Shown here: piece by piece, positions 29,623 through 29,913 of the stretch | Layout: each line of letters opens with the position of its first letter | Numbering within the stretch: position 1 is the first letter of the stretch | NCBI GenBank assembly: GCA_003389215.1 | Contig: QQVP01000119.1 | Coordinates: forward strand, 62,001 to 126,000 | Origin: Planctomycetota bacterium | Lineage (GTDB): Bacteria; Planctomycetota; Planctomycetia; Pirellulales; UBA7805 | Reading direction: 5' to 3' | DNA length: 64,000 nucleotides | Position numbers and translations under genes: made by a program | The notes under the pieces: generated by a model | What the model saw: only the letters and a program-made list of their open reading frames with translations | The model's database searches: none | Told to the model about the DNA's origin: nothing

Positions 29623-29913
29623 CTACGATCCCTGCGTTGGCAGCCCGGAGCAGATATTGTCCGTGATCTCCGACACGCGAAGCGCTTTGGTGCCCTTTTC
29701 ATTTACGAAGACATTTACGCCCGGTATTTCGACACCCAATCGGTCGGCAAGTTCAACTGTCGCCTCCACGCCGTTTAGACTGTCGAAATCTGGCAAATCG
29801 CCAATAGGACATGTCTGACCAGTAATCGCTACAGGTTCTCGTCCGCTGCTGGCTTGAATCTCCGCTAAGACCTCGGCGACAACCTCTGTGATTTGGGCTT
29901 TTGTCTTTGCCAT
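29623..29913 (-). CDS. Acyl carrier protein-like
   Basis: A 96-residue protein. F-D-S-L-N-G-V-E-A-T has the Asp-Ser-Leu signature of the phosphopantetheine attachment site, with Ser at residue 45. The flanking helices (ITEVVAEVLAEIQ, TVELADRLGVEIPGVNVFVN) fit an acyl or peptidyl carrier domain. It is first in the operon, with AAAGGAG six bases before the ATG. Being alone, it would carry an acyl or aminoacyl group for one of the other enzymes; no adenylation or ligase partner is visible nearby, so the load is unknown. Confidence 0.75.
   Translation of the reverse strand: MAKTKAQITEVVAEVLAEIQASSGREPVAITGQTCPIGDLPDFDSLNGVEATVELADRLGVEIPGVNVFVNEKGTKALRVSEITDNICSGLPTQGS

Follow-up and report, generated by a model that had tools for sequence, protein, structure and literature searches.

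We interpret the operon headed by an acyl carrier protein (ACP) gene in this Planctomycetota genome, with a probability of about 0.5, as a horizontally mobile, repressor-controlled nucleotide or DNA-base modification system in which the holo-ACP would serve a thymidylate synthase (TS)-like enzyme, most likely in conflicts with phages or plasmids. Carrier proteins have established roles in the assembly of lipids, polyketides, and peptides, and a few complexes include one as a subunit. The carrier-led operon described here suggests a previously undescribed, carrier-dependent alteration of DNA bases, and the carrier-led cassette occurs in at least four bacterial groups. The operon lies in a window of 64,000 nucleotides (the whole stretch of DNA that was analyzed; contig QQVP01000119.1, positions 62,001 to 126,000), and its features are as follows.

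29943..29970, minus strand: sigma-70-like operon promoter, with -35 TTGACC, a 16-nt spacer, and -10 TAAGAA inside the operator (consensus match only)
29934..29950, no strand: operator GGTAAGA-ATA-TCTTACC, overlapping the promoter -10
29623..29913, minus strand: acyl carrier protein, 96 aa, with the predicted phosphopantetheine Ser45 in F-D-S-L
29260..29619, minus strand: XRE-family repressor, 119 aa (HTH_31 1.6e-16; nearest PADLOC model capH, 2.4e-13)
28395..29276, minus strand: ImmA/IrrE-type metalloprotease (Peptidase_M78, 1.4e-14; HEMGH, a match to HExxH; capP 9e-13)
27617..28405, minus strand: divergent TS-fold enzyme, 262 aa, with Cys172 and Asn204 kept and RSxD lost
26529..27620, minus strand: HMUDK_hel protein (5-hmdU DNA kinase helical domain; PF18723 3e-115), with no P-loop kinase domain
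25154..26542, minus strand: APH/TCAD9-like kinase (TCAD9 5.9e-19)
24270..25142, minus strand: MazG nucleotide pyrophosphohydrolase with MazG_C (MazG_C 1.6e-74)

The ACP gene comes first and is followed by the XRE, ImmA, TS-like, HMUDK_hel, kinase, and MazG_C genes, all on the minus strand and with short gaps or overlaps, a run that bears out the first-pass annotation in its view that the ACP leads an operon. The ACP open reading frame starts with an ATG at 29913, and an AAAGGAG ribosome-binding site lies directly 5' of it. PADLOC recognized the regulators of the window cassette and gave weak matches to the kinase, but nothing more. The APH/TCAD9-like kinase, inserted between HMUDK and MazG in the window only, was absent from the other cassettes scanned with its profile. 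Upstream of the operon, at window positions 30037-30864, there is a divergent pair consisting of a MerR-like HTH gene and a gene for a 98-aa protein without a Pfam match.

The identity of the 29623-29913 product as an ACP is confirmed by family profiles and a predicted structure. Residues 43-48 form an F-D-S-L-N-G motif. Taken alone, the window protein scores 16.5 bits against the Pfam PP-binding model (PF00550), under the cut-off of 20.8, while a Streptomyces cassette ACP exceeds that cut-off. The profile of the family matches solved ACPs with an E-value of 5e-8 and places its serine in register with the 4'-phosphopantetheine serine. The AlphaFold2 model (pLDDT 88, pTM 0.80) has the ACP helix pattern, with helix II (residues 45-59) starting at Ser45, and its top 36 PDB matches by Foldseek are carrier proteins, most with a probability of 0.9-1.0 and a TM-score of about 0.6, the E-values being weak (0.05 and above), for a protein of this small size. 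Among 25 non-redundant cassette carriers with a mean identity of 26%, Ser45 is the sole invariant column, far above chance. The residues flanking it differ among cassettes (FDSL, IDSL, FNSK, LESR, LSSD, and LKSI), so the conserved feature is the serine itself; a few carriers have non-canonical residues beside it (NSK, ESR, SSD, and KSI). Four alphaproteobacterial carriers (L037-L040), missed by the profile at 1e-3, were assigned by position and motif (IDSL, MDSL, IDSL, and IDSK). The first-pass annotation had read a carrier with a D-S-L attachment site here, and the profile match, the invariance of Ser45, and the ACP-fold model uphold that reading; on the same three grounds we rejected a chance DSL motif. 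A displaced housekeeping ACP was also rejected, as five further PP-binding carriers are encoded in the window's genome and the cassette ACP belongs to a separate subfamily.

Some cassettes appear to bring their own means of activating the carrier. An AcpS-type phosphopantetheinyl transferase (PPTase) gene borders nine cassettes, which represent two phyla and were found on plasmids of R. rosettiformans, S. fredii, B. elkanii, and R. ruizarguesonis and in five cyanobacterial genomes (L058 and L070-L073). To the extent that gene content can speak to function, this is the best support for a carrier that works in the holo form, and we consider it strong. In the cyanobacteria, the acpS open reading frame spans 133-143 codons and converges on MazG, with a DUF1643-like gene after it. 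All five of these genomes encode another PPTase elsewhere, mostly of 217-264 aa (one genome, G710, has two more), and the linkage recurs on alphaproteobacterial plasmids, on which grounds we rejected acpS as a housekeeping neighbor placed there by chance. Three cassette hosts without a cassette acpS have one PPTase each, and the window's genome has one also. A DUF1643-like gene, named by sequence motif, adjoins the ACP cassette in L045, L046, L058, and L070-L073.

What the carrier might hold is constrained by the genes around it. The earlier observation that it has no fatty-acid or peptide-synthesis partner holds for the window operon and extends to its relatives: no condensing, loading, or adenylation gene is annotated in the plasmid cassettes, and an AMP-binding (PF00501) match near the cassette on its contig was absent in eight of eight genomes tested. 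The co-distributed adenylation enzyme that the same annotation had proposed to look for was thus not found in those eight genomes. Because there is no adenylation gene nearby, an aminoacyl cargo would lack a local source; the host acyl-ACP or acyl-CoA pool, or a free thiol, are alternatives. The cassette ACP shares its fold and invariant serine with the carriers of fatty-acid, polyketide, and nonribosomal peptide synthesis but differs from them in having no KS, AT, adenylation, or thioesterase partner and in being co-inherited with nucleotide enzymes.

The TS-like protein matches the TIGR03283 profile at 1.9e-9 and aligns to canonical TS by hhalign (93%), and its AlphaFold2 model (pLDDT 85) matches TS by Foldseek at 4e-9. 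It has the same fold as the CMP 5-hydroxymethylase MilA and the thymidylate synthases (Z 17.4 and about 15, respectively), and its Cys172 and Asn204, which do not vary across 19 sequences, align with their catalytic Cys and Asn. However, it shares only about 10-14% identity with these enzymes, has lost the RSxD motif, and is always partnered by an ACP. In canonical TS, RSxD binds the phosphate of dUMP and contacts folate. The canonical TS proteins in two of the loci (L020 and L059) keep RSND, while the same position in the TS-like proteins reads YATQ (window), YPTQ, YRSH, or YRNH. Because RSxD is absent, we class the window protein as a TS-superfamily enzyme and not as a thymidylate synthase. 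Loss of the motif is consistent with a non-standard donor, but it could instead reflect another nucleotide substrate or partly lost activity.

Plasmids, GTDB genomes, and IMG/VR together yielded 29 non-redundant TS-like loci, which come from Cyanobacteria, Alphaproteobacteria, Streptomyces, four families of the window's phylum (Planctomycetota), and IMG/VR contigs. This count excludes obvious duplicates (L007, the same as L006; L009, close to L003; and L069, the same as L002) and leaves out L061, where just a piece of the TS-like gene is present, at the end of the contig; some of the cyanobacterial loci that remain are closely related. Every one of the 29 starts with the carrier, in the order ACP, XRE, ImmA, and TS-like, with a C1 cysteine peptidase inserted before the TS-like gene in four alphaproteobacterial plasmids (L037-L040). 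HMUDK_hel comes next in most cassettes, and MazG_C is usual too. A uracil-DNA glycosylase (UDG) takes the place of HMUDK in three of the alphaproteobacterial plasmids (L037, L038, and L039), which together with L045 and L046 make up the ACP cassettes without HMUDK; two IMG/VR cassettes have MazG only, with HMUDK_hel missing. HMUDK is in turn found without ACP and TS-like at ten loci. Because all 29 TS-like loci are ACP-led and HMUDK occurs without ACP and TS-like at these ten, the carrier goes with the TS-like enzyme and the regulators and does not follow HMUDK. Nucleotide-supply genes recur near the cassettes, including dCTP deaminase-like, canonical TS, and dNMP kinase genes, with radical SAM genes in some; together with MazG_C, these genes support a role in nucleotide metabolism. 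We also checked whether homologues of the carrier occur mostly outside this neighborhood, which the first-pass annotation had said would count against it, and they do not: besides the ACP-led loci above, the ACP profile at E<=1e-9 matched cassette-bearing genomes only among 294 genomes of the same phylum.

Several of these loci have features of their own. In L037-L039, where the C1 cysteine peptidase is encoded between ImmA and the TS-like enzyme, a protease cascade is possible, and the ImmA-type protein of L037 carries the annotation "protease inhibitor I42 family protein". In the cyanobacterial locus L060 (5995-9698), transposase genes split the TS-like gene; the ACP and its neighbors are still present. 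L044 encodes, at 8701-10458 and inside an ACP cassette, an HMUDK_hel protein with an N-terminal dTMP-kinase-like P-loop domain, the full 5-hmdU kinase architecture, and a radical SAM gene comes next. A second scan of IMG/VR with the UDG-variant TS-like proteins found nothing, and a search of 50,697 phage records for the window ACP and TS-like protein detected no homologue of either at the thresholds used. For want of a match in the phage records, a phage origin of the two genes was rejected.

The operon also carries the features of an XRE-ImmA switch, namely an M78 protease with HExxH, an adjoining XRE repressor, and a palindromic operator. The candidate XRE-bound operator is GGTAAGATNATCTTACC, and cassettes from several phyla have its core, GTAAGA-N3-TCTTAC, at their ACP promoter. 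It lies just 5' of the ACP gene in the window, in most cyanobacterial cassettes, in both acpS-bearing rhizobial HMUDK cassettes, and in L045. There is one operator per locus at 15 distinct loci, where 0.05 would be expected across the whole 0.8 Mb searched; before overlapping copies and nearly identical loci were set aside, the matches numbered 22. PprI-DdrO and CapP-CapH provide examples in which ssDNA triggers a protease to cleave a repressor (PMC10904395). Both pair an M78 HExxH protease with a neighboring XRE repressor and a palindromic operator, as in the window, where the capH and capP profiles match, but the window operon differs from them in being ACP-led and in containing nucleotide enzymes.

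A complete Wadjet-like JetABCD cluster stands beside the window cassette (34393-41570, minus strand; JetD_C 1.9e-16, an SbcC/SMC-like ATPase, DUF2397, and DUF2398), and the cassette and this cluster form a defense island. Other cassettes have Shedu, SIR2, ABC-three-component, and pYEATS genes as defense neighbors. DefensePredictor systems with TS, dNMP kinase, 5-hmdU DNA kinase, and NMAD protect E. coli against phage (PMC13092281). They are operonic, some of them in defense islands, and resemble the window cassette at the level of enzyme class, with TS and 5-hmdU kinase classes in both; the same paper lists MazG and MazG_C as predicted defense domains, and the window cassette has the two. Its main text, however, names no carrier protein ("acyl carrier" is absent), whereas the window cassette is ACP-led. 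The phage 5-hmdU DNA kinase and thymidine hypermodification pathways (PMC7653180) have HMUDK_hel in common with the cassette, and the P-loop fusion and radical SAM gene of L044 add to the likeness. They differ from the window cassette, whose HMUDK_hel has no kinase domain and for whose ACP and TS-like proteins the thresholds used gave no phage homologue. Conflict systems that modify nucleotides and include TS, 5-hmdU kinase, and MazG are known already, and the carrier-led, AcpS-equipped version, of which the papers searched hold no description, may represent categorically new chemistry. Our literature search returned nothing matching an ACP with ImmA, TS, defense, or hypermodification; outside its reach were Burroughs 2015 and Iyer 2013, which reportedly predicted nucleotide-centric conflict systems.

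Our preferred model has the holo-ACP serving the TS-like enzyme, on the grounds that neither was ever found without the other and that the TS-like enzyme has lost the motif for the dUMP phosphate and folate. The conserved operator suggests that XRE, bound to the palindrome over the -10, would keep the operon off. On a signal, probably ssDNA or DNA damage, ImmA would cleave XRE, as in PprI-DdrO and CapP-CapH. Ser45 would very probably receive 4'-phosphopantetheine from a host PPTase or, in nine relatives, from the product of the cassette acpS. To judge by their conservation, Cys172 and Asn204 would allow the TS-like enzyme to activate C5 of a pyrimidine nucleotide, with the holo-carrier serving it and the thiol arm of the carrier delivering or receiving the group placed on C5. 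MazG_C may police or feed the nucleotide pool, and HMUDK_hel, or UDG in some variants, would act on the modified base in DNA. We infer the cargo, the chemistry, and the anti-phage activity of the cassette. In a more specific form, which we consider unlikely, the TS-fold enzyme would use the phosphopantetheine carrier instead of or besides methylene-tetrahydrofolate, a C5 carbanion or exocyclic methylene meeting the carrier thioester or thiol to give a pyrimidine that is C5-acylated or thioether-linked; this chemistry would act as an inducible immune effector. If a TS-fold enzyme does take a C1 or acyl donor from a carrier, this would be a new base-modification chemistry, and inducible immune effectors would gain a new class. 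With AcpS present in some hosts, a serine that never varies, and a TS-like enzyme without the phosphate/folate motif, the carrier-donor question for a TS-fold enzyme is a concrete and cheaply testable one.

The main rival to this TS-carrier model is a regulatory role for the ACP, as a sensor or subunit of the XRE-ImmA switch, in which its acylation or holo state, reflecting host lipid metabolism or phage takeover, would control the protease and the TS-like and other enzymes would form the effector arm. We hold this to be tentative and somewhat unlikely. The carrier is paired no less tightly with XRE-ImmA than it is with the TS-like enzyme, and co-occurrence is therefore equally compatible with a regulatory role: the ACP gene is directly upstream of XRE and ImmA in all 29 loci, and in Streptomyces these three and the TS-like gene remain together where HMUDK and MazG are rearranged. 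An ACP that reads the host acyl pool would also be expected to have no loading enzyme nearby. Against this, PprI-DdrO and CapP-CapH function without a carrier (PMC10904395), and the dedicated acpS in nine cassettes suggests a carrier that is kept charged, which is more typical of a catalytic carrier.

Two further readings compete with the TS-carrier model. The first-pass annotation proposed that an acyl or aminoacyl group held by the ACP could be moved onto a hydroxymethylpyrimidine; in this reading the hydroxymethyl would accept the group and HMUDK_hel would act on DNA. The real carrier in a nucleotide-modification operon is the part of this proposal that stands; the route itself we judge distinctly improbable, as the carrier tracks the TS-like enzyme and XRE-ImmA and not HMUDK, with ACP cassettes lacking HMUDK on one side and ten ACP-less HMUDK loci on the other. 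No adenylation enzyme co-occurs, and the window HMUDK_hel has no kinase domain, but the domain is that of 5-hmdU DNA kinases, the full fusion and a radical SAM gene are present in L044, and hydroxymethyluracil in DNA is known to be modified further (PMC7653180). The least probable reading, in our estimate, is that the operon shields the DNA of its own mobile element, by self-modification or counter-defense, and does not attack invaders. Many copies are on conjugative plasmids, and known thymidine hypermodifications guard phage DNA from restriction (PMC7653180), which would suit such a function. However, control by a repressor and a protease implies a system that is normally silent and can be induced, the neighbors of the cassettes are defense genes, and the phage records, where DNA protection is most common, hold no detected homologue of the window ACP or TS-like protein. 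A defense role would thus appear likelier than self-protection.

The HMUDK loci without an ACP may be regarded as part of a wider family of HMUDK conflict systems. They adjoin genes for TIR-domain proteins, a CBASS-type phospholipase, DNA polymerases, MazG, or a radical SAM protein, and they include L024 (Gloeothece pP742404), L028 (Parabacteroides), L017 (where the TIR call is from sequence only), and L043.
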